From contig NZ_CP009110.1 of assembly GCF_000739085.1 (NCBI RefSeq), forward strand, positions 6,448,001-6,512,000: a DNA stretch of 64,000 bases. The letters run 5' to 3'. This document shows, piece by piece, positions 15,511 to 36,385 of the stretch (positions are counted from its first letter, which is position 1; the number at the start of each line of letters is the position of its first letter). The notes under the pieces were generated by a model. It had not been told where the DNA came from, did not search any database, and worked only from the letters and a program-made list of their open reading frames with translations. The stretch comes from Amycolatopsis methanolica 239. Lineage in GTDB: Bacteria; Actinomycetota; Actinomycetes; Mycobacteriales; Pseudonocardiaceae. Position numbers and translations under genes: made by a program.

Positions 15511-15513
15511 GAG

Positions 15514-16758: not shown

Positions 16759-16842
16759 CCGGAGTTCCTTCCACTCTGTAGTTATCCCCCGGCGGGTGGT
16801 GCAAGCACCCGGTCCCGGGGGCCGCCCCGTTCGGGACTTCTT

Positions 16843-16883
16843 AATTATGTACCCCCGGGACTCACTATCGCAAGTGGATAGTG
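16843..16883 (-). promoter_or_regulatory. AT-rich promoter with overlapping inverted-repeat operator
   Basis: On the minus strand TTGCGA (16868..16873) and CATAAT (16843..16848; 19-base spacer) form a candidate promoter for the 125-aa gene. An inverted repeat, CACTATC (16863..16869) and GATAGTG (16877..16883), spans the -35 box, as a repressor site would. AT-rich bases here contrast with the GC-rich surroundings. Confidence 0.5.
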
Positions 16884-16899
16884 TGTGGTGCGGAGCACA

Positions 16900-17322
16900 C
16901 TACTGGGCGGCGAGCTCGCGGGCCTTGGCCTCAGCCAGTTCGTGCGCCCGCTCCGGAGTGGACGCGTAGGCAGTCAGGTGGTGAACGTCGGTGCCGCTCA
17001 CCGCGCGCTCCAGCTCGCCGGCGTCGGTGTCGACGTGCACCCGCTCGCCGGGCATGTCGGCGGTGTCGAACACGACCCGGGATGCGCCGCGAAGCTTCGC
17101 CGGCGCGGACAGCTGCCAGCTGCCGCCCTGCACGCTCGCCCGGCACGCCCACACATGCGCGACGAACCCGACTCCGGCCTGGGCCACGCGCACGGGCGCG
17201 ACGATGTGCCCCTCGCCGAGCTCGGCGGCGAGCTTGCCCGCGGTCTCGGCGTCTGGCCATGCGGCGAGGATCTCCGGGAACTCGCCGAGTCGCAGGATCG
17301 CGTGCAAGGTCTGCTCACTCAT
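16900..17322 (-). CDS. Unknown early protein
   Basis: 140 aa, ATG at 17322 (AGGAGG nine bases upstream; the ATG at 17331 is too close to it). Overlaps the upstream gene by eight bases. Predicted helix-strand mix with a Glu/Ala-rich C-terminal helix (TPERAHELAEAKARELAAQ). Last gene of the leftward run that begins at 19995. Confidence 0.72.
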   Translation of the reverse strand: MSEQTLHAILRLGEFPEILAAWPDAETAGKLAAELGEGHIVAPVRVAQAGVGFVAHVWACRASVQGGSWQLSAPAKLRGASRVVFDTADMPGERVHVDTDAGELERAVSGTDVHHLTAYASTPERAHELAEAKARELAAQ

Positions 17323-18031
17323 GCTGGTCATCCTCCTCGATCGGCCGGATGGTGCCAGTCCACCCGCCGTTGCCCTCCGCTCCGGAGCGCAGCCGTGGAC
17401 GCGACGGCTGCGCCTGGTCCTGCTGCTCGAGCACCTCACGCAGCAGTTCGAAGTTCGCCGGCGGCCAGCAGTGCTGGCACGCCAGGCACACGCACCCGCG
17501 CTCCGGATCGATCTGCAGCGCGGGCACTTGCACGTGCCCGTGCTCCTGGTCCCCGCGCCACACCATTCCGGCGCCGCACGCCGGGCAGGCCGCGGCCATG
17601 TGCAGCTGGCGCGGTGGGTCCAGCAGGTTGTTGATCTGGGCCGCCCAGTACTGCAGTTCATGCACGACCCAGGCGACCCGGTCACCGTCGGCCCATCGGC
17701 CTGCGATCGCCGCGGCCGCGCGGAACCGGGAGACCGGATCGGCGTCGGCCACCATCGCGTTGTAGTGCAGCTCGGCCGCGGCGCGCTCGACTTGGCGCCG
17801 CAGGTCCGCGGCGGCGAGCCGGAGCGGTTCGGTCGTGCGCGCGCCGCTGGCCTTGCCGGTCTCGCCGCCGTGCGCGAGCGCCTGGTCCAGCTGCTCGAGC
17901 AACGATGGCGCGTGATGCGTGGTGGTCGTCAGGTCCTCGCGGACGATTTTGCGTTCGATCGGGTCGACGAGCGCGGCGAGCGCTCGCCGCAGCTCGCCCT
18001 GCAAGGCGCGCAGAGTGCGCTGATCGGTCAT
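17315..18031 (-). CDS. Putative zinc-binding protein
   Basis: 238 aa, ATG at 18031 in an ATGA overlap. N-terminal 120 residues are helical and charged. CPACGAG followed about 25 residues later by CVCLACQHCW gives a likely zinc ribbon near residues 145-190, then an acidic C-terminus. Nucleic-acid binding is a reasonable guess; no specific family recognised. Confidence 0.72.
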   Translation of the reverse strand: MTDQRTLRALQGELRRALAALVDPIERKIVREDLTTTTHHAPSLLEQLDQALAHGGETGKASGARTTEPLRLAAADLRRQVERAAAELHYNAMVADADPVSRFRAAAAIAGRWADGDRVAWVVHELQYWAAQINNLLDPPRQLHMAAACPACGAGMVWRGDQEHGHVQVPALQIDPERGCVCLACQHCWPPANFELLREVLEQQDQAQPSRPRLRSGAEGNGGWTGTIRPIEEDDQHE

Positions 18032-18486
18032 CGGGTCCCCCGTGCGTGGATTGTGCGTGGTGGCCGCGGCCGGTGGTCCGGGCCGGTGTTGCGGTGGCGG
18101 CGCAGGTGCAGCGCGCGCATCTTCGGATCCGTCGGCGGTGCCGGCCGGGCCAGCCCGGCGTGCTGCAGGCACTCGGCCATCGCGTTGACGGTCGGCACAA
18201 GGCTCGCGAAGGCCTGCGCCACGCCCTCGACCAGCTGTCGCCAGACCGGAGCGGCTCCGCGCAGCACGACCGCTGCGGCCTCCAGCCGCCGCTCGGCTTC
18301 CTGCTCTCTCGCCCGGGCCAGCGCCGCGCGCAGGACGTCGGCCTCCGGGGTGACCTGCACGCGGCTCGCCGCCCAGAGCCGCTGGTGCACCTCGCAGCAG
18401 AAGTCCGGCGACGGTGAGTCGCCGAGGGGGCCGCCGCACCAGTGGCAGCCGATCGCCTGGTCGATCAGCTCGATGATGTCGGTCAT
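18028..18486 (-). CDS. Small Cys/His-cluster protein
   Basis: 152 aa, ATG at 18486 overlapping the previous stop (ATGA). N-terminal GCHWCGGPLGDSPSPDFCCE is a short zinc-knuckle-like cluster, like those that read as FCS/zinc fingers in actinophages. The middle is a long Ala/Glu/Arg helix; the C-terminus is basic (RRHRNTGPDHRPRPP). Confidence 0.7.
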   Translation of the reverse strand: MTDIIELIDQAIGCHWCGGPLGDSPSPDFCCEVHQRLWAASRVQVTPEADVLRAALARAREQEAERRLEAAAVVLRGAAPVWRQLVEGVAQAFASLVPTVNAMAECLQHAGLARPAPPTDPKMRALHLRRHRNTGPDHRPRPPRTIHARGTR

Positions 18487-18686
18487 GCCCGCTCGGCTCC
18501 GGTCTGCTCGATCTGGTCGACAAGCGCGAGCAGCGCGTAGCCGACGCCGAGCGTCGCCGCGCTGTCGATGTGCTCGAACGGCAGGTGTTGCACCTCGTCG
18601 GTGTAGGCGTCGAGTTGCTGGGCCGCGCGGTCGAGCCAGGCGCGGGCCTGGCCGGCCGCGGGTGGCCGCGGGGTCATGGGGTCCAT
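18483..18686 (-). CDS. Small helical protein, unknown
   Basis: 67 aa, ATG at 18686; an ATG three codons later is an alternative. Overlaps the 75-aa gene upstream by 13 bases and the next gene by four. Helical throughout, no motif. Retained because the tight overlaps fit the operon pattern. Confidence 0.62.
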   Translation of the reverse strand: MDPMTPRPPAAGQARAWLDRAAQQLDAYTDEVQHLPFEHIDSAATLGVGYALLALVDQIEQTGAERA

Positions 18687-18901
18687 CGTTCGGAGTCCCT
18701 TCCTTCCTGTCGTTCGGCTTTCGCGATCCGCTGGTGGTGCGCTGGGCCGCGCAACGGCTCGCCGGTGATGACGTTCGTGCAGGTCTTGCCTGGCTGGGCG
18801 TTGCAGCGTGGGCAGTCGGTGGTCTCGGCGTCCTCGCGGGTCATGAGGAAGTTGCCGAGCTCGTCGAGGCGCCGGAGCTCGCCCGCGGTGTAGCGGCTCA
18901 C
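18674..18901 (-). CDS. Actinophage-type zinc-finger protein
   Basis: 75 aa from GTG 18901, which forms a GTGA overlap with the HNH-domain gene stop. Contains CPRCNAQPGKTC with HH about 20 residues on (GPAHHQR), a short zinc motif common in actinophage early regions. Longer upstream reading is a shadow of the neighbour. Confidence 0.7.
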   Translation of the reverse strand: MSRYTAGELRRLDELGNFLMTREDAETTDCPRCNAQPGKTCTNVITGEPLRGPAHHQRIAKAERQEGRDSERWTP

Positions 18902-19995
18902 GGCGGACCGTCCGAACCGGGCAGGCTCTGCTCGCACTCGACGCACCCGGTGTCGACCGGGTAGCCGTGCACGCACAGCTCGGCCTGGTCCTCGTCGACA
19001 TCGTCCGGGGCGGGCGGGGTGTAGCCGGTGATGCCCTTGGCGTAGGGGCTGGGGGCGAGGTTCCCTCGTGCGGTGGTGGGTGGTCCGACGGTGGGGCGTT
19101 TCCCGGTTGGTCCGGCGTCTCCCACTCGGTCTTTCCAGGACGGTTTCAGTGCGGCACCCATCCCGGCCCCGCCCCTACCCAGCCCGACCGTGGTGCCGCC
19201 GCTGATGCCGTCGCGGATCTGCCCGTTTCCGGGCGCGACCTGCCCATTCGTGTAGGTCGGGGCGGGAGTGTCCGTGCCGTCCGGTGGATCCGGCGTCCTG
19301 GCCGGATCTGGATCGGATCCAACTGCGGATCTGGGTCCGGGTGCTGATGTGGCGTTGATCTTGCGCTGATCGGACGTTGGTCCGTCGTTGATCTTGTCCG
19401 GGTCGGGCGGGGGCAGGAGGTCCATGCCGGCGACCTCGGGCGTGCAGTCCTGCTTGCGCGAATTGCAGCCGCGGCAGGCCACGACGAGGTTGTCCGCTCC
19501 GGCGGCGATCTTCGGGTCGACGTGGTCGAACACGCCGCCCGCCGGGGTCTTGCGGTCCTGCCAGCGGACCTCGATGCCGCAGTAGCGGCAGCGGCTGCCG
19601 TCGCGGGCGCGCACCGCGGCCTTGAGCTGCGGGTCGCGCAGCTCGCGCCGCTTTGCCTTGTGCACGTCGTTCTCCGACCGGGACGGGTTGCGGTCGAGGA
19701 ACCCGTGCACGTAGAACCCGCCGAGCTCGGCGGGCCAGTCGCGGCCCTCCAGGCAGCGGCACTCGTCGCCGTGTTGGTGCAGGAACGGGCCCCGGTCGGC
19801 CACGCGCATCTCGGTCAGCGCACGCAGTTCGGCCCGGGAGGCGATCTCCCGGGCCTTGTCGGCAGGAATCCAGCCGTCCGTCCGTTGCGCCGAGCAGTAC
19901 AGCTTCATGCGCTGTACGGCGCCGTAGGCGGCGTTTCCCACCGCTCGCACGAGAACGTCGTCGTACTCGACGTCGTCCGTCCGCAGCCACGGCAT
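18898..19995 (-). CDS. HNH-domain protein with disordered C-terminus
   Basis: 365 aa, ATG at 19995. Residues 1-110 include a conserved-looking MPWLRTDDVEYDDVLVRAVG start seen in actinobacterial phage replication-region proteins. HNH core: SRCRYCG (C136, C139), VFDHVDPK (D157, H158) and CRGCNSRK. The last about 170 residues are Pro/Gly/Thr-rich with a final CVHGYPVDTGCVEC cluster. First gene of its operon, downstream of a terminator. Replication or recombination role is inferred. Confidence 0.8.
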   Translation of the reverse strand: MPWLRTDDVEYDDVLVRAVGNAAYGAVQRMKLYCSAQRTDGWIPADKAREIASRAELRALTEMRVADRGPFLHQHGDECRCLEGRDWPAELGGFYVHGFLDRNPSRSENDVHKAKRRELRDPQLKAAVRARDGSRCRYCGIEVRWQDRKTPAGGVFDHVDPKIAAGADNLVVACRGCNSRKQDCTPEVAGMDLLPPPDPDKINDGPTSDQRKINATSAPGPRSAVGSDPDPARTPDPPDGTDTPAPTYTNGQVAPGNGQIRDGISGGTTVGLGRGGAGMGAALKPSWKDRVGDAGPTGKRPTVGPPTTARGNLAPSPYAKGITGYTPPAPDDVDEDQAELCVHGYPVDTGCVECEQSLPGSDGPP

Positions 19996-20094
19996 CGGTC
20001 ACCGCCCGCCGCTCGGCACGGACACCGCGCAGCACTGGCCGCTGCCCTCCAACGGTGATTCCTCCAGCATCGTGCTTGTCCACTTCGGATAGGT

Positions 20095-20134
20095 GACCGG
20101 CCGCGCCCCCGGGGAAGCAGGGGCGCGGCCGGTC
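20095..20134 (-). terminator. Terminator closing the early operon
   Basis: Perfect 15-bp stem (20095..20109 with 20120..20134; GACCGGCCGCGCCCC arm) and 10-base loop, about 40 bases past the stop of the 43-aa gene. Confidence 0.85.
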
Positions 20135-20174
20135 GGCTGTGACGGCGCTCAAGGCGAGCGCCGAGATCGGGTAA

Positions 20175-20306
20175 TCAGGTCTGCTGGTCCGGCGCCGGCT
20201 CGCGGTGCGCCCCGTCGCTCTCGTCGCGTGCGTCGTCGGTGGCGGGCACGGGGTGTTTGCCCCAGAGGCTCCATGCGGCGGGCGGGATCGGCGGCTGCTC
20301 AGGCAT
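20175..20306 (-). CDS. 43-aa protein
   Basis: ATG at 20306 in an ATGA overlap with the 123-aa gene; TGA at 20175..20177, then the operon terminator. Begins MPEQPPIPPAAWSLWGKHP, a Pro/Trp motif frequent in tiny actinophage proteins; acidic end. Short, but the coupling and the terminator support it. Confidence 0.65.
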   Translation of the reverse strand: MPEQPPIPPAAWSLWGKHPVPATDDARDESDGAHREPAPDQQT

Positions 20307-20677
20307 CAGCGGGGGGTCTCCTGGTGGGTGAGAGCGGCGCGGAGGTCCCGGATCAGGTCGGCGGGGTCCGGGTCGCGGCCGTCCTCGAACTCGGCCTCGT
20401 CACGGTCCAGCCGGGCGAGCGCAGCGTCGATGCGGGCCTGGAGGTCGTCGCGCTCGCGGCGCGTGGCCATGAGCCGGCCGCGGTCCTCGACCGCCTCCTG
20501 CCGGTACTGGAGGCAGTTCGCGTGCAGCCGCTCCAGCTCGGCGAGGATCTTGCCAGCGAGGTCGGCGACCTTCGCGGCGCTCGGCTCCGGCACGCGTCCG
20601 GCTGCCCAGTTCTCGGCGTAGGCGCGCAGGGCGATCGCCGAGGCACGCGGGCCCGCCATTTTCGACTTCTCGGTCAT
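20306..20677 (-). CDS. Coiled-coil protein
   Basis: 123 aa. ATG at 20677 (GAGGAG eight bases upstream, ATGA overlap). Residues 30-115 are a continuous charged helix with heptad-like spacing (AKVADLAGKILAELERLHANC; ERDDLQARIDAALARL). No enzyme motif. Likely oligomeric. Confidence 0.72.
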   Translation of the reverse strand: MTEKSKMAGPRASAIALRAYAENWAAGRVPEPSAAKVADLAGKILAELERLHANCLQYRQEAVEDRGRLMATRRERDDLQARIDAALARLDRDEAEFEDGRDPDPADLIRDLRAALTHQETPR

Positions 20678-21357
20678 CGCTTGCGCTCCTCGCGTCGGTG
20701 GAGCACGGCTGCGGCGGTGTTGGCGACGTCCTCCCACAGCGACACGCCCGGGTTGAACGGCGAGCGCGTCTCCGACCAGTTGTCGTTGGGGTCCCACAGC
20801 GCGGCGAGCTCGTCGGCGATCTCCCTACCCGCGTCGCACGGCTCGCACGGACGTCGAATCAGCTGGCGGAGGGCGTCCGGAATCCGGATGTCGAGCACGA
20901 TGACGACATCCTCAGGGGCCTGAGCCGGAGCGGTCTCGGGGCCGCGCTCGAGCACACGGACGGTCGTGGGCAGCACGGCGTACGGCGTCGGCTCGCCGGG
21001 CTTGAGCACGGCCAGCCAGCCGCGCCGGTTGATGTCTTCGTCGTCGACCAGCGTGCCCTCTACGACGGGGAAGTCCCGTCCGCCGTAGCCGCGGACCCGG
21101 TCGCCGGGCCGGGGCTCCGGTCGGCCGAACCGCTGCTCAGCATCGGCGCTGAGCTTGAACAGGTCCTGCGCCGTCAGGACCTGCCCAGTGAGGACTGGGG
21201 CGGAGGCGATGCCGCGCGGGTAGCGGGCGCGCAGCGCGGTGCGGACCTTCTCACGGTCAGTGTCGCGGATGGCCGGCCCGGTGCCGGTGTTGCAGAGGCA
21301 CAAGGCGTCGTGGACGAGCTGCACTATGTCGTCGGTGATGTCGGTCGGGCCGGTCAC
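20674..21357 (-). CDS. Unknown early protein
   Basis: 227 aa, GTG at 21357 (GTGA overlap with the LuxR-type gene). A central RPGDRVRGYGGRDFPVVEGTLVDD segment reads like a small beta-barrel such as a Tudor/SH3 fold. A CEPCDAGREIADELAALWDP motif follows near residue 180. No family assigned. Confidence 0.72.
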   Translation of the reverse strand: MTGPTDITDDIVQLVHDALCLCNTGTGPAIRDTDREKVRTALRARYPRGIASAPVLTGQVLTAQDLFKLSADAEQRFGRPEPRPGDRVRGYGGRDFPVVEGTLVDDEDINRRGWLAVLKPGEPTPYAVLPTTVRVLERGPETAPAQAPEDVVIVLDIRIPDALRQLIRRPCEPCDAGREIADELAALWDPNDNWSETRSPFNPGVSLWEDVANTAAAVLHRREERKR

Positions 21358-21806
21358 TGAGGGCCTCCGGTGGTGTCGAGGATGTTGCGCTGGCAGGCGA
21401 GGAACACGGCGTGCGCGCGGTCGCGGGCGCCGAGCTTGTGGAACATGCGGCGAGCGTGGGTCTTGACGGTGTCCTCGGAGATGTGGAGCTCACGGCCGAT
21501 GTCGGCGTTCGTGAGGCCCTGGGACATGCCGTGCAGGACCTCGACCTCGCGCTCGGTGAGGCCGGCCAGCACGGCGGGCGGGTTGGTCTCCGACAGCGCC
21601 GGGCGTTCGGGCGCGCGGACCGGGCGCCCGGAGACCTTGCCGGGGCCGCCGGTGACGTAGCGACGCTGCCGGGCGGGGCCGTCGGGGATGCGCTTGACGT
21701 CGATGCCGTAGCTCGACAGCACGCCCATGACGAGCGGGACGGCGTCAGGGTGGATCTGCAGCCCGGTGTACCGGCTGCGGTCGTCGTCAGCGAGTGCGGC
21801 GGTCAT
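21354..21806 (-). CDS. LuxR-type helix-turn-helix regulator
   Basis: 150 aa from ATG 21806 (AAAGGA upstream). C-terminal GerE/LuxR domain: LTEREVEVLHGMSQGLTNAD then IGRELHISEDTVKTHARRMF. No receiver domain; the first about 70 residues are a different small domain. It probably binds DNA as a dimer and may time early or middle genes. Overlaps both neighbours. Confidence 0.87.
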   Translation of the reverse strand: MTAALADDDRSRYTGLQIHPDAVPLVMGVLSSYGIDVKRIPDGPARQRRYVTGGPGKVSGRPVRAPERPALSETNPPAVLAGLTEREVEVLHGMSQGLTNADIGRELHISEDTVKTHARRMFHKLGARDRAHAVFLACQRNILDTTGGPQ

Positions 21807-21936
21807 CGTTGTCCTTTGTGGATTCGGCACGCCGGTGGGCGTGCAGGTAGTCGGCGGCGGAGTCGAGAAGCACGCCGGCGGCCCAGACGGCCAGGCGCGC
21901 GGTGTGGGCGAGGGCCAGGGCGACGACGGCGTTCAC
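21787..21936 (-). CDS. 49-aa hydrophobic protein
   Basis: GTG at 21936 makes a GTGA overlap with the upstream stop. Residues 3-30 are hydrophobic/amphipathic (AVVALALAHTARLAVWAAG), then a charged tail. It overlaps the start of the LuxR-type gene by 20 bases. May sit at the membrane. Confidence 0.6.
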   Translation of the reverse strand: MNAVVALALAHTARLAVWAAGVLLDSAADYLHAHRRAESTKDNDDRRTR

Positions 21937-22469
21937 GGGCGGGACCTCAGTTCGTGGTCGGTGCAGGCCGGCCACCAGGCGCGCACGTCGGTGCCGGCGC
22001 CGCGGGTGATCCGGTCGCCGTCGTGGACGAGGCACTTGGGGTAGCGGCCGGGACGGCGGTAGCGGCAGTTGCCGCAGCGGCGCCCGGGCGCGGCCCGGTC
22101 GGCGGCAGGCGCGGCGCCGGGGTGCAGCTTCACGGGGTAGCCCAGCGCGGCGGTGAGCGGGTGCGCACCGGCGGCGAGGTACTGGCCCTGCCGTTCGGTC
22201 CGGCGGGCGTCCGGGGACGCCTCGCCGAGCCGGTAGAGCGGGGCCGCGGTGTACTCGAACGGGCCGCCGGGGCGGCCGACCGTCCACACCACCCAGAAGT
22301 GGTGCCGGCCGCTGTCCGGGTCGGCGGCGACCTGGACCACGCGGCCGCGCCAGGACGCGTCCCGGTGGTAGCCGACCCGCTCCCCGACGGCGAACAGCGG
22401 CCGGTGCTCCGCAGGGCCCGAGCTGCCGCCCCACAGCGGCAGCGAGTGCTGGTCGGACTGCTTGGTCAT
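21933..22469 (-). CDS. Putative small zinc-binding protein
   Basis: 178 aa from ATG 22469, one base past the upstream stop (TGATG); a GTG one codon earlier is possible. Early segment VGERVGYHRDASWRGRVVQV looks like an SH3-like strand set. C-terminal RRCGNCRYRRPGRYPKC... with a later CTDH pair is a likely zinc site. Confidence 0.7.
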   Translation of the reverse strand: MTKQSDQHSLPLWGGSSGPAEHRPLFAVGERVGYHRDASWRGRVVQVAADPDSGRHHFWVVWTVGRPGGPFEYTAAPLYRLGEASPDARRTERQGQYLAAGAHPLTAALGYPVKLHPGAAPAADRAAPGRRCGNCRYRRPGRYPKCLVHDGDRITRGAGTDVRAWWPACTDHELRSRP

Positions 22470-23095
22470 CACGTCGCGTCACCCCCGCGCAGGAGTTGCC
22501 GGGCGGTGTCGAGGCGAGCCCAGTCGGCCGGGTCGCCGCCGAGGTCCGGGTGCGACTTGCGGGCGGCGATCCGGAGCAGGCCGCGGATGTCGGAGTCGGT
22601 GAGCTGCAGCGGGTGCACCGCGCCGGTGAACTCGCGGAGCCAGTCCAGCGCCTCGCGCTTGGTGGAGAACGGCGCAGCCGGGCGAGCGCCTTCGATCGCG
22701 CGCCACCCGGCGTACTGCTCGCCGCGGCTGGACACCCCATAGCGGTCGACGGTGCGCAGCGCGTGCAGCGCGAGCGCGATGGCCCGCACGTTGTCCTGCC
22801 AGGAGTTCGCGAAGGTGTCGCACGGGTAGGACAGCGGTCCGTGCTTGCTCCGGAAGGCCAGCGCCACGCCGTGGTAGCGCACCTTCGCGTTCGAGCGGAG
22901 CATCCCGTCGCGCCGCACGTCCGCGTCGGTGGCCACGACGCGCAGCGCGACCGCGCCCTGCACACCGAGGTGGGCCAGCTCGCGGCTGAGCAGGTCGAGG
23001 GTGTCGGCCCACTTCACGCGGAACGGGCTGGCCCGCGGGTGCGGTGTTGCCGGGTAGGGCCAGGTCGGCATCGGCTCGATCTGGTATCGCATCAT
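22469..23095 (-). CDS. J-domain-like protein
   Basis: 208 aa, ATG at 23095 (ATGA overlap). The C-terminal about 45 residues carry IRGLLRIAARKSHPDLGGD, with the HPD signature that DnaJ-type proteins use to stimulate DnaK, followed by a helix. The rest is an unknown domain. In phages such proteins are thought to recruit host DnaK; that is inference here. Confidence 0.72.
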   Translation of the reverse strand: MMRYQIEPMPTWPYPATPHPRASPFRVKWADTLDLLSRELAHLGVQGAVALRVVATDADVRRDGMLRSNAKVRYHGVALAFRSKHGPLSYPCDTFANSWQDNVRAIALALHALRTVDRYGVSSRGEQYAGWRAIEGARPAAPFSTKREALDWLREFTGAVHPLQLTDSDIRGLLRIAARKSHPDLGGDPADWARLDTARQLLRGGDAT

Positions 23096-23682
23096 CGGCG
23101 CACCACCGCCGAGGATGTGCCCGGGTACGGCTTGCCGCCGCCGGGCTCCTCACACGGCCCGAAGGCCTCGCCGGAGGCGCCCATCGGATAGAGGTGCCGG
23201 TGCGGCCGGACGGTCGCGCCGGCGCGGCGTGCGTGCTCGAGCTCGTTGGCCAGCTCGACCGCCTCGGCCTGTAGCCGGGCTGCGGCGGCCTGCAGGTCGT
23301 CGCGCTCGTGCACGACGGTGCTGAGCTGCTGCTGGACGTCGACCAGCTCACGGCGCGTCCGGTCGTGGGCGGCTTGGTGCTCGGCGCGCTCGCGGTCGGC
23401 GGTTGCGGTGATGCGGTCGAGGTTGCCGCGCACCGTGGCCAGCTCGGCCCGCAGCCGGGTCAGCTCGGCCTGGGTGGCTTCCCGGTCGGCGGCCGCCGCA
23501 CCGGCAGCGCCGCCGCGGGCCAGCAGCGGCTCCACGATCTGCTTGCGCACCGCGGCGGCGAACGCGGTGATCGTGTGGTGCGGTAGCGGTTCGTCGCCGG
23601 CGCGGCGGGCCAGGCGCTCGTCCTCCCGCCGCAACACGACTTCCGGGTCGGGAACGGCGCGGCCGGTGACCGTGGCGGTCAT
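23092..23682 (-). CDS. Coiled-coil protein
   Basis: 196 aa, ATG at 23682 (ATGA overlap). Residues about 65-160 form a long coiled coil rich in Ala/Glu/Arg/Gln; the C-terminus is Gly/Pro-rich (CEEPGGGKPYPG). No catalytic motif. Similar architecture occurs in actinobacterial phage early operons without known function. Confidence 0.72.
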   Translation of the reverse strand: MTATVTGRAVPDPEVVLRREDERLARRAGDEPLPHHTITAFAAAVRKQIVEPLLARGGAAGAAAADREATQAELTRLRAELATVRGNLDRITATADRERAEHQAAHDRTRRELVDVQQQLSTVVHERDDLQAAAARLQAEAVELANELEHARRAGATVRPHRHLYPMGASGEAFGPCEEPGGGKPYPGTSSAVVRR

Positions 23683-24005
23683 GACTCGGCCCACCAGTGC
23701 TCGCGGCAGTGGTCGGTGCCATCCGCCTTCTCGGCCGTGCAGCGGGACTCGCCGCGGCCGTCCGCGCGGGGAGCGCGGAACTCGCAGCGGCCCGGCAGGT
23801 TGGCCTGCAACCACCGCCGCGCCTCACCGACCGCGGCCCCGTGCGCCGCCGCGTCGCGACCGTGGTTGTCGGTGATGGCCTGCCGCATCGTCTTGGGCAG
23901 GCGCTGCCAGGAAGCGCGGCAGGAGAACTTGCTGTGCGGGATCTCGGCGCCGCAGCCGCACGGGCAGGCGTGCATCCGCCGGCGGTGGTCAAGGTGGGCG
24001 CTCAC
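23679..24005 (-). CDS. Putative zinc-finger protein
   Basis: 108 aa from GTG 24005 (GTGA overlap). N-terminal HACPCGCGAEIPHSKFSC and C-terminal CTAEKADGTDHCREHWW look like two Cys/His zinc sites around a helical centre. DNA or RNA binding is likely but unproven. Confidence 0.72.
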   Translation of the reverse strand: MSAHLDHRRRMHACPCGCGAEIPHSKFSCRASWQRLPKTMRQAITDNHGRDAAAHGAAVGEARRWLQANLPGRCEFRAPRADGRGESRCTAEKADGTDHCREHWWAES

Positions 24006-25099
24006 TGGGCACCACCCCGGATCTCCTCGAGGACCTCGGCGAGCCCGTCGACGGGCACCAGGACCTCCCGGGCCTTGCTGCCGCGGGCCGGGCCGAGCAC
24101 GCCGCGCTGTACCAGCTGGTCGATCAGCCGGTTCGCCTTCGTCGCGCCGATGCGCAGCTTGCGCTGCAGCAGCGTCACCGAGCCCAGCTGCCCGGTGATC
24201 AGCACCTCGGCGGCCTGGCACAGCAGGTCGGGGTCTCGCTCGAGGTCGGGGAACTCGGACAGCGGTTCGTCCACAGCGGAGGTGTCGGCTGTGGACAGCA
24301 CGACTCCGGCGCCGTCGCGCAGGATGCTGCTGCCCGGCGGAAGGTCCGCGTCGGCCTCGGGCTTGCGTGGCGGGGGCGGCAGGTCTGGCACGTACACCGC
24401 AGCGTCGGGCTCCTGGCCGGCGCCGTCGATGTCGTCGTCCCACCGGTAGGAGGTGACCGCGCCGATGTAGCTGGTGCCGATCTGCACCAGCAGCGGCGAG
24501 CGCTGGTGGTAGCGGTAGGTCTCCAGCGCGGACTTGCGCGCCTTGGCCACCCGCACGAACGGCTCCAGCGCCGCGGACCCGAAGTCGGTGCGCGGCACCG
24601 CGGGCACGACCCGGCCGGAGGAGTCCCGGTGCTCGAGGAAGTCCGGGCGCCGGACCAGCAGCGACCACACCGTGCGCGGGTACTCCTCGATCCGGCCCGG
24701 CGAAAACTCCAGCCGCAGCCCGTCGGCCTCGAACAGCGCGTCCTCGCTCTCCCGCACGACGAACACGCCCTCGTCGATGCGGATCTCGACCGCGTGTTCC
24801 TTGTGCTCCTTGGCTTTCCGCTTGAACGCGTCGATCACCGTGCGGACGTCGTCGATCCGCCACAGCATCGGCTCGTGCAGCTGCCCGTCCGCGTGCACGT
24901 AGGTCTGGCCCACGGCGAACCCGTTGCACGACGTGCCCACCAGCAGGTCCGTGCGGCCCGGCTCCAGGCCGCGCTCACCGCGGTCGGTGTGCAGCAGCAC
25001 GCCGGCGACCGCGCCGTCCTCCGGATCCTGGGCAGCGGTGTAAACGAGGCTGCCCAGCAGCTCCAGCAGGTTCTTGGTCTCGATGCGGATCGCGCTCAC
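24002..25099 (-). CDS. Clamp-like protein fused to an FtsK-gamma winged helix
   Basis: 365 aa, GTG at 25099 (GTGA overlap). C-terminal residues about 290-355 match the FtsK gamma DNA-reading domain, including VTLLQRKLRIGATKANRLID then LVQRGVLGPARGSKAREVLV, but no FtsK motor is present. The first about 190 residues read like the first sliding-clamp domains (AGVLLHTDRG, LLVGTSCNGFAVGQT). A Pro-rich linker joins them. The clamp similarity is less certain than the FtsK-gamma call. Confidence 0.72.
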   Translation of the reverse strand: MSAIRIETKNLLELLGSLVYTAAQDPEDGAVAGVLLHTDRGERGLEPGRTDLLVGTSCNGFAVGQTYVHADGQLHEPMLWRIDDVRTVIDAFKRKAKEHKEHAVEIRIDEGVFVVRESEDALFEADGLRLEFSPGRIEEYPRTVWSLLVRRPDFLEHRDSSGRVVPAVPRTDFGSAALEPFVRVAKARKSALETYRYHQRSPLLVQIGTSYIGAVTSYRWDDDIDGAGQEPDAAVYVPDLPPPPRKPEADADLPPGSSILRDGAGVVLSTADTSAVDEPLSEFPDLERDPDLLCQAAEVLITGQLGSVTLLQRKLRIGATKANRLIDQLVQRGVLGPARGSKAREVLVPVDGLAEVLEEIRGGAQ

Positions 25100-25344
25100 G
25101 CCGCGTCCCCACCGTCAGCCAGCGGCAGCTCGGGCTGCTCCTCGCGGTGGAACTCACGCGGGTCGACCACCACGCCACCACGGATGTGGATCAGCGGGTG
25201 CTCGCCGCACAGCGTGCAGTTGCCGAACTGGTCGAGCGTCGGCACTGGCCGCAGGGCGTGCCGCCCGTACTCGAGGTCGGCGAACGTCTGTGGCCGCCGC
25301 TCCTGGGCAGCCGCAGGAGCTTGGGCGGTCTGGGTGTCATCCAC
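25096..25344 (-). CDS. Small Cys-pair protein
   Basis: 82 aa, GTG at 25344 with GGAGG eight bases upstream, and a start inside the previous gene. Central NCTLCGEHPLIHIRGG gives one CxxC and two His, a possible minimal zinc site. Acidic C-terminus. Confidence 0.7.
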   Translation of the reverse strand: MDDTQTAQAPAAAQERRPQTFADLEYGRHALRPVPTLDQFGNCTLCGEHPLIHIRGGVVVDPREFHREEQPELPLADGGDAA

Positions 25345-25828
25345 GGGGCTGACCTCCGGAGATCGGGACGAGCATGTGCCCCCGGGCCTCGATCTCGGCC
25401 CGGGTCCGCTCCTCGATAGGGACGGGAATGTCGAACGTGGGGGTCAGCGCCAGCTCCCAACGCCCGGGCGCTGCCTCGCGGTAGTAGTGCGTCGACCCCG
25501 GCGGCTTGTTGGTGCAGCGGTAGACGACCGGCTGAGCGGGCGGCACCGGGCGGCCGCGGCGGAGCGCGGCGACCAGTCGCGCCCACAGCCCGCGCCGCTC
25601 TGGGGTGTCGCGCACGGCCGGCGGCCGCGGCGGCCAGGCGCCGCGCTCCTCGTAGAAGCTGTTCACCGAGACGTGGTCGTCGGCGCGGCCGTGGTGCTGG
25701 CCACCGGCCGAGTCCGGCACGGGCACCTCGCCGGACTCGCGCTGCCAGATCGTGAGGAACGGCACGGTCGGCTCGCGCCGCGCGACCGGGAAGACGTCGG
25801 TGGGGTCGTCGGGCCAGACGGCGATCAC
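25337..25828 (-). CDS. Unknown early protein
   Basis: 163 aa from GTG 25828 (GTGA overlap with the small lipoprotein-like gene); the longer in-frame reading crosses that gene. Short folded-looking ends with a basic Pro-rich middle (RRGRPVPPAQPV). No family recognised. Confidence 0.68.
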   Translation of the reverse strand: MIAVWPDDPTDVFPVARREPTVPFLTIWQRESGEVPVPDSAGGQHHGRADDHVSVNSFYEERGAWPPRPPAVRDTPERRGLWARLVAALRRGRPVPPAQPVVYRCTNKPPGSTHYYREAAPGRWELALTPTFDIPVPIEERTRAEIEARGHMLVPISGGQPRG

Positions 25829-26007
25829 GCGCCCACCCCCGACGGGGTGGCCGGTGCGACGGCCGGAGTTGTGTGCGGCGCTGTGCCGTTCGGCGGGACG
25901 CATGACGTCGTCATCGCGAACAGCGCGCCGAGGGCGAGCAGGGCTGCCGCGGCGCGCTTCGCGCGCTGCTGGGGCGGGGGCGGTGCCTGTACCTTTGTCG
26001 TCATCAC
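25825..26007 (-). CDS. Small membrane-anchored / lipoprotein-like protein
   Basis: 60 aa; GTG at 26007 is best spaced from AAGGAG, with ATG next. After a short Pro-rich, basic N-terminus comes AAAALLALGALFAMTTSC, a signal-like segment ending in Cys that could be an atypical lipobox; the tail is Pro/Thr-rich. Surface role, for instance superinfection exclusion, is speculation. Confidence 0.68.
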   Translation of the reverse strand: MMTTKVQAPPPPQQRAKRAAAALLALGALFAMTTSCVPPNGTAPHTTPAVAPATPSGVGA

Positions 26008-26040
26008 CGGGTGTTGCTCCTTCCGAGGGTTCCGGTGTGC

Positions 26041-26074
26041 GCCCGTCTCGTCGCCTGGTCCGCGCGAGGCGGGC
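26041..26074. terminator. Hairpin after the XRE operon
   Basis: Arms 26041..26050 and 26065..26074 pair with one G-T, 14-base loop. The T run follows on the plus strand, so the leftward use is uncertain. It lies between the 56-aa gene and the lipoprotein-like gene. Confidence 0.5.
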
Positions 26075-26094
26075 TTTTCTGTCGGTGGGCTGTG

Positions 26095-26265
26095 CTAGGC
26101 GGCGCTCTTGCGCTCGGTCATGCCGCGGCGGATCGGCGGCAGCAGGAGGCGAAGGCGGTCGAGGGTCGCTCCGTCTGGGCGAGGTGCCCGCGCGATCACG
26201 CGGTCGATGAACTGCGCGCGCGACTCGCCAGGTTCGATCGCCAACCGGTGAAGGGCGGTCGTCAC
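26095..26265 (-). CDS. 56-aa protein coupled to the XRE regulator
   Basis: GTG at 26265 overlaps the XRE stop as GTGA; TAG at 26095..26097. Begins MTTALHRLAIEPGESRAQFI and ends RKSAA; basic and helical. Not recognised. Coupling to a regulator suggests an accessory control role. Confidence 0.65.
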   Translation of the reverse strand: MTTALHRLAIEPGESRAQFIDRVIARAPRPDGATLDRLRLLLPPIRRGMTERKSAA

Positions 26266-26597
26266 GCCGCCGCTCCAGCGACCCGTTTGGGGCCGCGCGA
26301 AGGCTCCCGGTCGTCCCGACGGGGTGGGGCTTTCGGTTCGCGCTTGGGCTGCTTTGGTGGTTCGTCCGGGAATGACGCGCCACCCTCCGGCGCGAGGCGG
26401 TCGTCGCGCAGCGCTCGGGCGAGCGCGAACTGCCGACGGCGGGAGGGCTTCCCGTCGTGGCCCAACTCGATGTTGCGGAGATACCCGACCGACATGCCGA
26501 CCTCGGCCGCCAACTCGACCGTTGACTTGTCGGCCTGCTCGCGGAGGCGCCGCACGAGCTGGCCGTAGGCCGGTTGAGTGAGTGGAGGTTCGATCAT
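26262..26597 (-). CDS. XRE-family regulator (leftward early repressor/activator)
   Basis: 111 aa from ATG 26597. HTH in LRRLREQADKSTVELAAEVG and MSVGYLRNIELG, then a basic Pro/Lys/Arg-rich tail. The predicted -10 box (26605..26610) lies seven bases before the ATG, so its mRNA is probably leaderless, and operator repeats abut the start codon. It is first in the leftward early run, facing the rightward repressor-like gene across shared operators, like a cro/cI pair. Confidence 0.85.
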   Translation of the reverse strand: MIEPPLTQPAYGQLVRRLREQADKSTVELAAEVGMSVGYLRNIELGHDGKPSRRRQFALARALRDDRLAPEGGASFPDEPPKQPKREPKAPPRRDDREPSRGPKRVAGAAA

Positions 26598-26604
26598 GTG
26601 CAGA

Positions 26605-26633
26605 AAGGTACAGAGAGGTTCAGGGTCGTGCAA
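26605..26633 (-). promoter_or_regulatory. Leftward early promoter
   Basis: Minus-strand TTGCAC (26628..26633), 17-base spacer, TACCTT (26605..26610). Start point expected at or next to the ATG at 26597. Confidence 0.65.
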
Positions 26634-26642
26634 GGTCCAATG

Positions 26643-26671
26643 TTGCACTACCCTGCACTTTTCTGTACTCT
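26643..26671 (+). promoter_or_regulatory. Rightward repressor promoter
   Basis: TTGCAC (26643..26648), 17-base spacer, TACTCT (26666..26671); the mirror image of the leftward promoter. Gives a leader of about 40 bases with AGGAGG (26703..26708) before the ATG at 26718. Confidence 0.65.
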
Positions 26672-26717
26672 TCTGAACCTAACGCCACCAAAGTGCCAGC
26701 TCAGGAGGCTAAATACG

Positions 26718-27221
26718 ATGGCGCAAGCGGAGAGATTGTTGACGCGACGCAGCGGACGCCGGTTCGCTCCCTGTACTTTTCTGAGCTACTCTGCACGCAT
26801 GGACGAGCGCCGGAAGAAGCTCGGGAGACGGGTCGCCCTTGCCCGTCAGCGCGCCGGCTATTCCAGCCAGAAGGCGTTCGCCGACGCCGCCGACCTCAGC
26901 GAGAAGAGTGTCGCCGACGTGGAGCGCGGCGATACGCGCCCGGGCAAGTCGACGTTGTGGAAGATCGAGGGTGCTCTAGGTTGGCCCGACAACGGAGCGG
27001 TTCACTACCTCGAGACTGGTCGCCCCGAAGATCTTGATGCACTGCCGTTGCCATCGACCGCGCCCACAATCGCAGAGCCTCGGCGGAACTACCCAGCCCA
27101 ACTTGAGGACGACACCGAGCGGAAGCTGTGGGACCTCCCCGAACTGTCCGAAGAGGAGCGCTGGAACCTGATCATCTTCTACCGCACGCAGCGCGCGACC
27201 AAGCTCCGTAACACCGGGTGA
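26718..27221 (+). CDS. XRE-family repressor (immunity repressor candidate)
   Basis: 167 aa from ATG 26718, chosen for AGGAGG nine bases upstream. A second start at 26799 (MDERRKKLGRRVALARQRAG) begins right where the HTH domain starts and follows a third operator array. HTH about residues 35-90 (QKAFADAADLSEKSVADVER). C-terminal ELSEEERWNLIIFYRTQRA could be an oligomerisation helix. Divergent from the early operon, so the likely lysogeny repressor. Confidence 0.82.
   Translation: MAQAERLLTRRSGRRFAPCTFLSYSARMDERRKKLGRRVALARQRAGYSSQKAFADAADLSEKSVADVERGDTRPGKSTLWKIEGALGWPDNGAVHYLETGRPEDLDALPLPSTAPTIAEPRRNYPAQLEDDTERKLWDLPELSEEERWNLIIFYRTQRATKLRNTG
26771..26796. promoter_or_regulatory. Third phased operator array inside the repressor gene
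   Basis: CTGTAC (26771), CTGAGC (26781) and CTGCAC (26791), again 10 bases apart, ending three bases before the alternative ATG at 26799. TACTCT (26787..26792) could serve as a -10 for a leaderless short form. Confidence 0.6.
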
Positions 27222-27254
27222 GAGCCACCGCGCCAACTAGGCCAAATGGGTCGT

Positions 27255-27317
27255 TACCGCGCGGTAGTTGATCACGAACCGGAAACGGTTGCTAACTCAA
27301 TCTGGCGACCTTAGATA
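27255..27317 (+). promoter_or_regulatory. Palindromes and candidate leaderless promoter for the 243-aa gene
   Basis: TACCGCGCGGTA is a perfect palindrome (27255..27266); AACCG-GAAA-CGGTT (27277..27290) is a second inverted repeat overlapping TTGCTA (27289..27294). TAGATA (27312..27317) lies 17 bases on, nine before the GTG. There is no ribosome site. Confidence 0.45.
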
Positions 27318-27325
27318 CATCAATC

Positions 27326-28057
27326 GTGAAAAGAATCGACCTACTGGGGAGGCGGTCGAAGCGGAGGGCTGATGCCTATGAGCAGGGCCTTTCGCTGATC
27401 GCGGAGGCTGTCGCCGGCGGATCGTCTCCTAGTTCGAAACGGTCAGGTAAGGCTCACCTGACCGTTGTGCCGCCCCTGGAGCCCGGGGCGCAACGAATTG
27501 CTCACCGAAAGCTTGCACTTCGGCCACGGGCAGAGTTCTGCGGCTGGTTCCTGTCTGGGCTGACGGCGGCGGTCATGCTGGTAACCCTCGTGGCGCTGCG
27601 CGCACCGGCCTCGCCGACGGATGAGGCTGTGCCCGACCGCGCGCCGGAGTTGAGCGTCGCCCCGACGACCGGCGCGCCCGACGAGAACGACGTCAGAATC
27701 CAGGTGGAGCGGCTACGAGCAAACGGGACGGTCAGTTCGACGACGCCAACGACAACCGTCACAGTCACCGCTCCAGCAGCATGGAACGGCTCGCCCAGCA
27801 CCCGCGTAGCGACGCCACCGAGCAGTTCAACCGCGCGTAGCAGCACGCCCCGAACTCCCCCGCCCTCGACGTCCGCAACCGAGCCAGCGCCGCCGGCCGC
27901 GTCCGACCGACCAGCGCCTGGCAACAACGACGACACTGATCAGGACGGGGACACCGCACCATCGGATGGCCAGCCCGCGGATCAGAAGCGCGCGCAAGGA
28001 ACCCCCCACGGCGTGGCGCTCAACCTCGGCGCTCTGCTCGCCGCGGTCCTTGCCTAG
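27326..28057 (+). CDS. Single-span membrane protein with Thr/Pro-rich exterior
   Basis: 243 aa from GTG 27326, leaderless-looking. Basic N-terminus, one membrane span near residues 72-92 (GWFLSGLTAAVMLVTLVALR), then about 130 residues of Thr/Ser/Pro/Ala with TVTVTAP repeats, probably outside the cell. Lies between the repressor and integrase, the usual place for lysogenic-conversion genes; superinfection exclusion or surface change is an inference. It converges with the integrase, overlapping by four bases. Confidence 0.75.
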   Translation: MKRIDLLGRRSKRRADAYEQGLSLIAEAVAGGSSPSSKRSGKAHLTVVPPLEPGAQRIAHRKLALRPRAEFCGWFLSGLTAAVMLVTLVALRAPASPTDEAVPDRAPELSVAPTTGAPDENDVRIQVERLRANGTVSSTTPTTTVTVTAPAAWNGSPSTRVATPPSSSTARSSTPRTPPPSTSATEPAPPAASDRPAPGNNDDTDQDGDTAPSDGQPADQKRAQGTPHGVALNLGALLAAVLA

Positions 28058-29583
28058 CCGGCGAGCCCTCCATGCTCGGTCGGTTCGTCGCGCACCAGCG
28101 CGACGCGTTCCTCCGCGGGCACAAACGGTTGCCTCCGCCCGGCAGGCATGACGTGCAGCTCACCTAGCACGTTCTTCGCGAACAGCAGTCGCATGATCGC
28201 GCGCCGAGCCGCGATCGGGGTGTGCTGCCAGCGTTCCGCCACGTCCGGCCCCGGCTCGATCAGCCCGCGGAGGACGCTGGGTCTCGCCAGCTGCTCCCGC
28301 TCGCGTTCGAGCTTGGCGATCCGCTGCTCCAGGCCCGGTGCGACATCGCTCGCGAACCCGACGGACAGGGTGCCAGCCCGCACCTTCGCCTTGAGTTCGG
28401 CCAGTTCCGCCCGCACGCCCGCGAGCTGGGTGCGGATCCGTTCAATCTCGGCGTCCCGCTCGTCGTCGGCCTGGTCAAGGGCGCCGTACTGGCGCGGGTC
28501 AGCCAGGAATCGCAACGCGATGTCGGTGGCCAGCTCCTCCAACGGGCCCTTCCGGATCGACACGTGAGTGTTCCCGTTGCAGCGATAGGCGTCACGGGAG
28601 CCACCGATGTACGCGACCGGGCTGCCACAGACGCCGCAGCGCGCGATCAAGCTCAGCAGGTGAACCGCTGCGCCCGGCCGGGTGTTGGTGCACGCGTTGG
28701 CCTGCAGGCGTTCCTGCACTGCGTAGAACAGGTCTGGCTGGACGATCGCTTCCCACTGGGCGGTGACCAAGGCCTTGGCGTTCTTCAGGCTCCGGTTCCC
28801 TCGCACGCCTGGCGAGTGCACCCGGAGGCCGGCGTATGCCGGGTTGACCAGCCAGGAGCGCATGTGCTGCTGGGTGACCTTCGTCCCCTTTCGAGTGCGC
28901 AAGCCGCGCTGGTAGAAGTCCTCGGCGATCGCACGCTGCGAGTGCCCTGCGGCGACGCGCCGGAACGCTTCCTCCACCCAGGGCGCCGCCTCTGGGTCGG
29001 GGAACTGGCCGATAAGCTCGCCGGTCTTCGGGTCGTACTTCCGGATGAAGCCGAACCCCGGGATGCCATGCGGTAGCCCCTCGGCGGCGTTGACTGCGAG
29101 CTGGTCGCGCGTGCGCTCGGACGTCTTGGAGGCCTCGGCCGACGCGTCCAGCGCTTCGTCCAGGAGAGCGCGGCGGTCCCGCCAGTCCGCGCAGTTGAAC
29201 AGCCGCCCCATCACCTCCACCCAGATGTAGACCTGGTGTTCCTCGCACAACTCGATCAGCCGGAGCCATTCGGATTCGCGGCGGCTCCCCCGCGACGCCT
29301 CCCACAGCTGCAGGATCTCGCCGCGTTCGAAGTCGCCAGATTCGAGGTCCTGCATCAGCCGCGCGAAGTCGCCCCGCGACCCGCGCGAGTGCCGTGACGC
29401 ACCGCCGACGTCCCGGTATGGCCCTCGGTGATCGGTTCGCCACTGCCGGATCTTGGCCCGCCGCAAGTGCGCCTTATCCTGCCGCGCGGGGCTCGCTTCC
29501 TGACCGTTCGCAGCCTTTTTGGAAACCCGCAGGTACCGACGCGCTAACGACCCGGCCGCCCCGGGCTCGACGAGGGGAGACAT
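28054..29583 (-). CDS. int: Large serine recombinase (integrase)
   Basis: 509 aa from ATG 29583. Resolvase domain begins RRYLRVSKK with catalytic Ser21; GASRHSRGSRGDF follows. Recombinase domain about 170-265 (GIPGFGFIRKYDPKTGEL; HSQRAIAEDFYQRGLRTRKG). Zinc ribbon CGVCGSP (C316, C319) with YRCNG (C335). A coiled coil follows (RIRTQLAGVRAELAELKAK). It integrates the phage by attP x attB recombination. No clear ribosome site; own promoter upstream. Confidence 0.95.
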   Translation of the reverse strand: MSPLVEPGAAGSLARRYLRVSKKAANGQEASPARQDKAHLRRAKIRQWRTDHRGPYRDVGGASRHSRGSRGDFARLMQDLESGDFERGEILQLWEASRGSRRESEWLRLIELCEEHQVYIWVEVMGRLFNCADWRDRRALLDEALDASAEASKTSERTRDQLAVNAAEGLPHGIPGFGFIRKYDPKTGELIGQFPDPEAAPWVEEAFRRVAAGHSQRAIAEDFYQRGLRTRKGTKVTQQHMRSWLVNPAYAGLRVHSPGVRGNRSLKNAKALVTAQWEAIVQPDLFYAVQERLQANACTNTRPGAAVHLLSLIARCGVCGSPVAYIGGSRDAYRCNGNTHVSIRKGPLEELATDIALRFLADPRQYGALDQADDERDAEIERIRTQLAGVRAELAELKAKVRAGTLSVGFASDVAPGLEQRIAKLEREREQLARPSVLRGLIEPGPDVAERWQHTPIAARRAIMRLLFAKNVLGELHVMPAGRRQPFVPAEERVALVRDEPTEHGGLAG

Positions 29584-29609
29584 GGTGAGTAGGGTAAAGC
29601 ACCACGCAG

Positions 29610-29638
29610 AAGGTACGACGACCGAGGCACCTTGTTAA
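29610..29638 (-). promoter_or_regulatory. Integrase promoter
   Basis: Minus-strand TTAACA (29633..29638), 17-base spacer, TACCTT (29610..29615), the same -10 as the leftward early promoter. A short leader of about 20 bases precedes the ATG. Confidence 0.65.
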
Positions 29639-33518: not shown

Positions 33519-33716
33519 CTACTCCCCGCTGCTTTCGCGCTGTCGGATCTCCGCGATCTGCCGACGCACGTCCTCAACGTTCCACCGCCGATGGCCACGT
33601 AGCGTCGTCTCCGTCGGGACAAGCAGCCCCTGCCGCACGTAGCGATTCAGCGTGCCGCGGCTGATGCCGAGGACCTCCGCGAGCTCGCCAGTGGTGAGGA
33701 GCCGCCGATTGATCAT
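33519..33716 (-). CDS. BldC/MerR-like DNA-binding protein (possible excisionase)
   Basis: 65 aa, ATG at 33716, no ribosome site, so possibly leaderless. TTGELAEVLGISRGTLNRYV is the MerR/BldC-type HTH; RRWNVEDVRRQIAEI follows. BldC-type and phage Xis proteins are known to bind direct repeats head to tail; nine-base repeats lie directly upstream. May regulate itself or help excision. Confidence 0.82.
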   Translation of the reverse strand: MINRRLLTTGELAEVLGISRGTLNRYVRQGLLVPTETTLRGHRRWNVEDVRRQIAEIRQRESSGE

Positions 33717-34963: not shown

Positions 34964-35749
34964 TTAGGGGGCCGGAACGGGGCGCGACGCCTCGGTGAGC
35001 ACCTCCTCCGGGTACAGGTTCACTTCGCCGTAGAGCTGGTGCTGCGTTTTCTGCGGTCGAATACCGCGGCTGCGGCAGATCTGGCTGGCCCTCTTCCCGA
35101 GCGCGCGGGTGGCGCCGGTCGAGGTGGGCAGGCCCATCTTCCGGGAGTAGCCGAGAGCGGAGTACCAGTTGTGCTTGCCCTCGATGCCGTCGAGGCGGCT
35201 CTCCACTGCGGTCAGCCGCTCGCGCTGTCGCACCTGCTCGACCTCGATCTTGCCGACGCGGCGGATTGTGTCGATCTGCTGCCGCGCCCACTCAGGCAGC
35301 TCGGCGAGATCGGACTCGATCGCCTCGGCCTGCTCAGTCCGCGCCGCGAAGTACGCCTGCGCGTCGGCCACCTCGGGTTTGTTCGGGTCGCCGTTCATCG
35401 CCACGAGGTAGGCGGCCTGCCGGGACAGCTCGTAATCCTCGCCGCCGTTGGGCGCGAATCGCCCGCCGGCCGCCCGGTGCTGCGATGCCATAATTGGTGT
35501 GACCTGCGCGAACTCGCGCGAAACATCCATCCCCGTGTTGCTCGCCGTCTGCATCGCTCGCGCGATAGCCGGCTGGAGGTTCTGCCAACGGGCGTAACCC
35601 ATGAGGCCCTGGAGATGCCGCGCGGACCAGTACTCGGTGCCGTCGGCCCGGGTCTGCTTGATCCGGTCGAACGGCGACGTGGAGTCGTGTCCGGGGTCAC
35701 GATCGCGTGACGCGGCTTCCAGGGAGTTTTCAGCGTTGATAGGGTCCAT
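34964..35749 (-). CDS. DinD/Bro-type phage antirepressor
   Basis: 261 aa from ATG 35749 (GAAAGGA upstream). N-terminal half matches DinD/Bro-N-type proteins: FDRIKQTRADGTEYWSARHL, then YELSRQAAYLVAMNGDPNKP and AYFAARTEQAE. C-terminal half resembles antirepressor DNA-binding ends: GATRALGKRASQICRSRGI and LYGEVNLYPEEVL. Such proteins counter repressors during induction. Confidence 0.82.
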   Translation of the reverse strand: MDPINAENSLEAASRDRDPGHDSTSPFDRIKQTRADGTEYWSARHLQGLMGYARWQNLQPAIARAMQTASNTGMDVSREFAQVTPIMASQHRAAGGRFAPNGGEDYELSRQAAYLVAMNGDPNKPEVADAQAYFAARTEQAEAIESDLAELPEWARQQIDTIRRVGKIEVEQVRQRERLTAVESRLDGIEGKHNWYSALGYSRKMGLPTSTGATRALGKRASQICRSRGIRPQKTQHQLYGEVNLYPEEVLTEASRPVPAP

Positions 35750-35866: not shown

Positions 35867-35894
35867 ACCTTACACCGCTTCTCCGGCATGTCGA
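35867..35894 (-). promoter_or_regulatory. Candidate antirepressor promoter
   Basis: Minus-strand TCGACA (35889..35894), 16-base spacer, TAAGGT (35867..35872). Confidence 0.35.
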
Positions 35895-35940: not shown

Positions 35941-36160
35941 AAGTCCACACAAGTCCACGTGCGAGAGCGTCCGAAGAGTGTCTGCGCTGGTCACGATGAT
36001 GAAGTGTCGCGATTAGCCGCTATTAGTCGCGGATAGTCGTGGTGGGCCGCGATAAGTCTCAAGAGACTAGAAGAGTTCCCGAGAGTTTTAGAGAGGAATA
36101 AACTGCAACAGATAACAACCGGCAGCAACGGACAGCAACAGGCCGCAACACACAGCAACC
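35941..36160. repeat. Block of 10-bp-phased degenerate repeats
   Basis: From 36001 to 36160 the sequence divides into sixteen successive 10-mers in three families. Units at 36001-36060 end in (T/G)AG(T/C)CGC-like cores (GATTAGCCGC, TATTAGTCGC, GGATAGTCGT). Units at 36061-36100 begin RAGAG. Units at 36101-36160 carry CAAC at positions 6-9, GCAAC in five of six. Before this, AAGTCCACAC and AAGTCCACGT (35941..35960) keep the same register. No gene is present in 35908..36208. Confidence 0.8.
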
Positions 36161-36202
36161 CCAACGGGTCCGGGCGGCCACTACGCCCCCGGACCCGTTG
36201 GG
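36160..36202 (-). terminator. Late-operon terminator
   Basis: Perfect 15-bp stem (36160..36174 with 36188..36202; CCCAACGGGTCCGGG arm), 13-base loop, just after the holin stop. Confidence 0.88.
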
Positions 36203-36208: not shown

Positions 36209-36385
36209 TCAGCCGATCGGCTTGTTCGGTACGCGCCACACGCCGTAGACCGTGCCGGCGGCGAGCGCGAGCGCGGACGCGACGGTGCCGTACTCGCTCC
36301 AGTCCAGGACGTTGTCCGCCAGGATCGGGCCGACGGCTGTGCACAGGCCGCCGATGGCGGCGACGATCGCCTTCAGTGCGTGCAT
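36209..36385 (-). CDS. Holin-like membrane protein
   Basis: 58 aa, ATG at 36385 with GAGG upstream. Two short hydrophobic segments (LKAIVAAIGGLCTAVGPIL; GTVASALALAAGTVYGVW) around a charged turn. Directly after the endolysin; probably forms the lysis pore. Confidence 0.75.
   Translation of the reverse strand: MHALKAIVAAIGGLCTAVGPILADNVLDWSEYGTVASALALAAGTVYGVWRVPNKPIG

Follow-up and report, generated by a model that had tools for sequence, protein, structure and literature searches.

Phage repressors are mostly regarded as dimers that read palindromes, and the lambda CII site is made of two half-sites, TTGC-N6-TTGC. Head-to-tail cooperative binding by HTH proteins has a known signature, direct repeats spaced by one helical turn, as with phage 186 Apl and the Xis proteins of lambda, Gifsy-1 and Pukovnik (PMC7498355), and such repeats are likewise bound by BldC (PMC5859096) and RdfS (PMC11963761). 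The 186 Apl operators, at pR-pL and at att, hold five to seven loosely conserved direct repeats 10-11 bp apart in a lysis-lysogeny control region (PMC7498355). In Streptomyces BldC and RdfS/Xis-type filaments, wHTH proteins oligomerize head-to-tail with one protomer per turn and tolerate degenerate repeats (PMC5859096, PMC11963761); the BldC repeats follow AATT-N4-C. The P2 C repressor also acts on direct repeats, not on a palindrome, and uses two repeats 22 bp apart (PMC4752584).

The window, by which we mean the whole 64,000-nt stretch of DNA analysed here, lies within a 7.24-Mb actinobacterial chromosome and contains, at 36001-36160, a block of 10-bp repeats which, by analogy, is most likely lysis-lysogeny control DNA working like these known one-turn direct-repeat operators. 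The surrounding element is a 37,822-bp prophage that occurs twice in tandem, the two copies being identical (window -8203..29618 and 29619..67440; G000:C1:6439797-6515440); this is either a double lysogen or comes from the assembly. The features around the block are as follows.

28054..29583, minus strand: large serine integrase
29619..29622, unstranded: attP-like core CGAC (4-bp repeat overhang) between the two tandem prophage copies
33519..33716, minus strand: 65-aa BldC/Xis-like wHTH protein, downstream of the antirepressor and on the same strand, a candidate for a filament-forming binder
34964..35749, minus strand: antirepressor, Bro-N-like, 261 aa
35817..35855, minus strand: leader hairpin before the antirepressor (leader fold z -3.75)
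35867..35894, minus strand: candidate antirepressor-operon promoter, TCGACA-N16-TAAGGT, weak by consensus and placed just downstream of the block
35941..35960, unstranded: two AAGTCCAC 10-mers (units at 35941 and 35951) in the register of the block
36001..36060, unstranded: sub-array 1, six TAGTCGC-like 10-mers (CGACTA on the minus strand)
36061..36100, unstranded: sub-array 2, four RAGAG 10-mers, GC 0.40
36101..36160, unstranded: sub-array 3, six 10-mers with CAAC at positions 6-9 (on the minus strand six GTTGCN5, the spacing TTGC-N6-TTGC)
36160..36202, unstranded: 15-bp perfect inverted repeat (hairpin), probable end of the late/lysis operon
36209..36385, minus strand: small holin-like gene at the end of the lysis cassette, assigned by position and frame, with a relative in L042
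36400..37101, minus strand: endolysin

The stretch 36001-36160 divides without gaps into sixteen consecutive 10-mers of three families on one 10.0-bp register, and their grouping into six TAGTCGC-like, four RAGAG and six CAAC units is exactly that of the original prediction, made from the letters of the DNA. The two AAGTCCAC 10-mers keep this register as it had claimed, and its start of the span at 35941 is right if both are counted; between 35961 and 36000 the 10-bp periodicity is weak. Identity at lag 10 is 0.587 over 36001-36160, compared with 0.262 +/- 0.035 in dinucleotide-preserving shuffles, none of 5000 of which reaches this value, and the autocorrelation asked for in the original prediction is thereby borne out. 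At lags 20, 30 and 40 the identity is still 0.54, 0.49 and 0.45, the period is 10.0 and not 10.25 or 10.5, and nowhere else in the 64 kb does a 10-bp periodicity reach this strength. The three families are truly distinct, with mean identities (out of 10) of 6.1, 5.2 and 6.9 within families, 2.6, 1.9 and 3.7 between them, and 2.5 in the background. Also as predicted, the block is AT-richer than its surroundings (GC 0.52, and 0.40 in sub-array 2, versus ~0.70 in flanking DNA) and lies outside genes, with the late-operon hairpin on one side and the leader of the antirepressor, which starts at 35749, on the other. The candidate promoter at 35867..35894 was not detected by a stricter promoter scan.

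The block appears to be a DNA element and not a structured RNA: its RNA folding does not go beyond that of shuffles and no Rfam family matches it, and the reading as an RNA element was dropped on these two grounds. Across the host genome, the TAGTCG pair pattern is confined to the two prophage copies, and a host regulon motif was rejected for this reason. No close DNA relative was found among known phages or within the genus.

When set beside the described systems, the block resembles the Apl operators in its loosely conserved, one-turn direct repeats, but it has three families instead of one motif, and it lies before an antirepressor whereas the Apl array lies between pR and pL; no Apl homologue was found. 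Like RDF- and Apl-type sites, the block consists of direct repeats in tandem with a spacing of about one helical turn; the phage has the BldC/Xis-like gene, whose product is a candidate for the protein that would bind them. The families of the block differ from BldC repeats and are not specially AT-rich except in sub-array 2; their consensuses, GATTAGTCGC, AAGAGTTTTA and GACAGCAACA, do not follow AATT-N4-C, and sub-array 1 alone (GATTAGCCGC, TATTAGTCGC) is distantly similar to it. The minus strand of sub-array 3 repeats the CII pattern TTGC-N6-TTGC five times over, with one unit TTGT, a likeness that comes from general knowledge and not from a membership test; no CII-family protein was found. 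Like P2 C sites, the repeats are direct, but three to sixteen units follow one another at 10 bp.

Within this phage, the closest grammar is found at the immunity switch between two divergent XRE genes.

26262..26597, minus strand: Cro-like XRE protein, 111 aa
26598..26637, plus strand: immunity operator array A, four GTNCAG 10-mers in 10-bp steps, first prophage copy
26639..26678, minus strand: immunity operator array B, four 10-mers
26767..26796, minus strand: immunity operator array C, three 10-mers, abutting the repressor start codon
26799..27221, plus strand: XRE repressor, 140 aa

Eleven GTNCAG 10-mers thus stand in three sub-arrays with exact 10-bp steps, beside both XRE start codons. 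When periods of 7-14 were compared in 14 non-coding stretches of the prophage, 10 bp was best only in the block and in the immunity switch. The two motifs are not the same. A matrix built from the eleven immunity sites finds sub-array 2 as its next-best plus-strand place in the prophage, but weakly (z 4.5 versus ~8.3 for true sites), and no GTNCAG core on 10-bp steps occurs in the block, where sub-array 2 alone resembles it, again weakly. Because this match is weak, identity of the block motif with the immunity motif was rejected, and the block is not simply made of further copies of the immunity operator.

One-turn spacing is shared by homologous control regions. Among the loci at hand, 10 bp was the best period in 10 of 15 divergent XRE-XRE regions, some of which had already been noticed for their arrays; the test was therefore repeated on homologues fetched by protein similarity alone, a set free of selection by arrays. 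Here 10 was the best of the periods 7-14 in nine of the 15 regions upstream of repressor homologues (p 1.8e-5), and it was also best at both of two new viral loci upstream of such homologues, which gives 11/17 for the pooled set (best of eight periods, p ~7e-7). The motifs in these regions often retain a CAG/CTG core, as do AGGTCAGAAT AGGACAGAAG AGGTCAGTTG in L570. In Gordonia and Mycobacterium phages, 10 bp was favoured in only one of nine immunity regions. Arrays of 10 bp as a general actinophage rule were rejected on this result, and they are therefore a trait of one repressor group.

Relatives were found via the terminase. In two further prophages, L354 and L356, the lysis cassette is followed directly by an antirepressor, in each case of a different family than the one in the window, and both carry a 10-bp array at this junction, with the units GCTAGTCGAC GCTAGTAGCG GCTAGTCCGC before a P22_AR_N antirepressor in L354, and with five AGCCCATTAC units plus TTACTTCTGC-type units before a Bro-N+KilAC antirepressor in L356. 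The best 10-bp scores over 60 bp at the window, L354 and L356 junctions are 0.70, 0.52 and 0.84, compared with shuffle maxima of 0.53, 0.47 and 0.48. Array motifs differ among the junctions, and the window (sub-array 1) and L356 share 13 of the 14 bases of TAGTCGCGNATAGT, which one of 60 shuffles reaches. A fourth prophage, L589, in which a related antirepressor follows a late-type gene, has no array, so that the comparison gives an array in three of four prophages. The expectation in the original prediction that close relatives would keep the phasing is mostly upheld, in that the phase is kept with differing motifs in two prophages and is absent in one. Lysis regions lacking an adjacent antirepressor showed no array, either in the endolysin relatives scanned (L412, L415 and L416 among them read through) or in four further prophages. 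The array therefore tends to accompany the antirepressor unit rather than lysis, a rule that is not strict and comes from a small sample. The hairpin at 35817-35855 is a strong GC hairpin, possibly an attenuator, and by eye hairpins occupy the corresponding place before the L354 and L356 antirepressors.

A wider version of this association was rejected. Upstream of antirepressor relatives, 10 bp was in no clear excess over other periods, and the family-wide homologues of a second antirepressor mostly have no arrays; hence arrays are not a property of antirepressors in general but of particular arrangements. Arrays of GTTGC and TAGYCG in 10-bp steps are present in many unrelated viral contigs, but arrays just as numerous and as long were obtained with TAGYCG spaced at 11 bp (50 loci) and with a scrambled motif spaced at 10 bp (70 loci), and a phage-wide conserved TAGTCG/GTTGC motif was discarded because of these controls.

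Since one-turn repeats are a signature of head-to-tail HTH binding and the phage encodes suitable HTH proteins, we propose that the block probably controls, in cis, the leftward antirepressor operon of this temperate phage. It would be a composite operator for the antirepressor promoter, bound head-to-tail by small phage HTH proteins in a way comparable to the sites of 186 Apl, Cox, BldC or lambda CII. In this model we infer protein binding, its cooperativity, the position of the promoter and the effects on antirepressor and induction. At least sixteen sites one helical turn apart would all face one side of the DNA, and small phage-encoded HTH proteins would bind them head-to-tail and cooperatively, upstream of the antirepressor-operon promoter; the bound block would set the timing of the antirepressor and, through it, of repressor neutralization and prophage induction. 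The three motif families would most simply reflect three specificities, or else three seed sites of fewer proteins, and their shared register would allow the bound proteins to abut, so that two or three regulators may share one register on a composite operator. The suggestion in the original prediction that sites on one face act as in cooperative operators gains support from the one-turn direct repeats at the phage's own immunity switch and upstream of homologous repressors, and also from the arrays that two other prophages carry where lysis genes and antirepressor meet.

The likeliest binders are the XRE Cro/repressor pair and the 65-aa BldC/Xis-like protein, all of them candidates. The XRE proteins are counted here because homologous genes accompany 10-bp arrays. 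The 65-aa protein (33519..33716) matches the BldC structures 6ama and 6amk by sequence, its model (pLDDT 86) resembles MerR-type wHTH domains including those of BldC-DNA complexes, and in the alignment it conserves the base-contacting Arg30 and the minor-groove His46 of BldC. For this protein we only hypothesize a role as binder of the block, because the block lacks the AATT-N4-C consensus and the L354 and L356 arrays showed no BldC-like gene next to them.

Two aspects appear unusual, an XRE repressor group with one-turn arrays in its control regions, and three site families on one register before an antirepressor. Tentatively, and with somewhat less confidence than in the composite operator itself, we suggest that an XRE-type prophage repressor group in Pseudonocardiaceae may read tandem 10-bp direct repeats, not palindromes, and that the antirepressor promoter of this phage may have a second, composite array joining three DNA specificities on one helical register, with several regulators sharing one nucleoprotein filament that would decide induction. 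If true, a direct-repeat repressor group combined with a composite three-family array would amount to a different design of lysis-lysogeny switch, and the block would be a compact natural substrate for studying how different HTH proteins share one DNA-bound filament.

Arrays of this kind have other possible origins and uses. The 10-mers could be iterons read by the initiator of a phage replication origin, with the AT-richer sub-array 2 as the melting region; the local GC of 0.40 at 36061-36100 would suit this, and in the unrelated viral contigs L302, L291, L234, L232, L162 and L197, 10-bp GTTGC-type arrays lie inside or overlap homologous replication-initiation genes, three of them near anti-repressor genes. 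However, the sole replication-like gene found in this phage (18898-19995, copy 56720-57817) is far from the block and neither contains nor adjoins an array, the nearest parallel within the phage is the immunity switch and not the replication gene, and arrays recur beside antirepressors in relatives; an origin therefore seems unlikely. We consider it rather less likely still that the block is a functionless, neutral tandem-repeat remnant of slippage. Tandem arrays with 10- and 11-bp periods, whatever their motif, are no rarity in viral contigs, but slippage does not yield 160 bp of three families that share a register and yet diverge heavily within each, and it would explain neither why homologous control regions prefer 10 bp to other periods nor why arrays recur at the lysis-antirepressor junction of other prophages.

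The att sites of large serine integrases are short and have no accessory arms, and the block is 6.4 kb from the att core. Both points speak against a recombination-directionality (excisionase) site, which we regard as very improbable even though the phage encodes an Xis/BldC-like protein and RDFs bind one-turn direct repeats (PMC7498355). A partition centromere of ParR or ParB type, which the original prediction had left open, shares phased direct repeats with ParR-type centromeres, but no ParA, ParM, actin-like or ParB/ParR-type gene was found among the proteins scanned, and the phage integrates via its serine integrase and is present as a tandem prophage. We give this reading the least credence, as barely plausible, and the interpretation in the original prediction is in this sense partly supported.

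Other parts of the prophage also encode DNA-reading or regulator-like proteins. At one prophage end, 30965-32711 holds a module of XRE-DUF5753, DUF6879 and a 109-aa protein that resembles host regulators, and homologues of the XRE-DUF5753 and 109-aa proteins lie at the corresponding end of the G175 prophage (L383 1434-2246, L356 19680). The phage protein phrog_6152 (24002-25099, copy 61824-62921) has a C-terminal, DNA-sequence-reading FtsK gamma domain without the motor, and a phage-encoded LuxR/GerE-type HTH protein is located in the early region (21354-21830). Outside this prophage, a TAGTC 10-bp array occurs near a host sensor-kinase-like gene at an apparent element end in the same-genus genome G015 (L373 14440-14490), and an unrelated viral contig (L290 4500-4760) carries a 10-bp array much like the window block, whose motif also changes three times while the register is kept (CAGACTTCCG, GTTGCATTGA, then units of the ATATC type).
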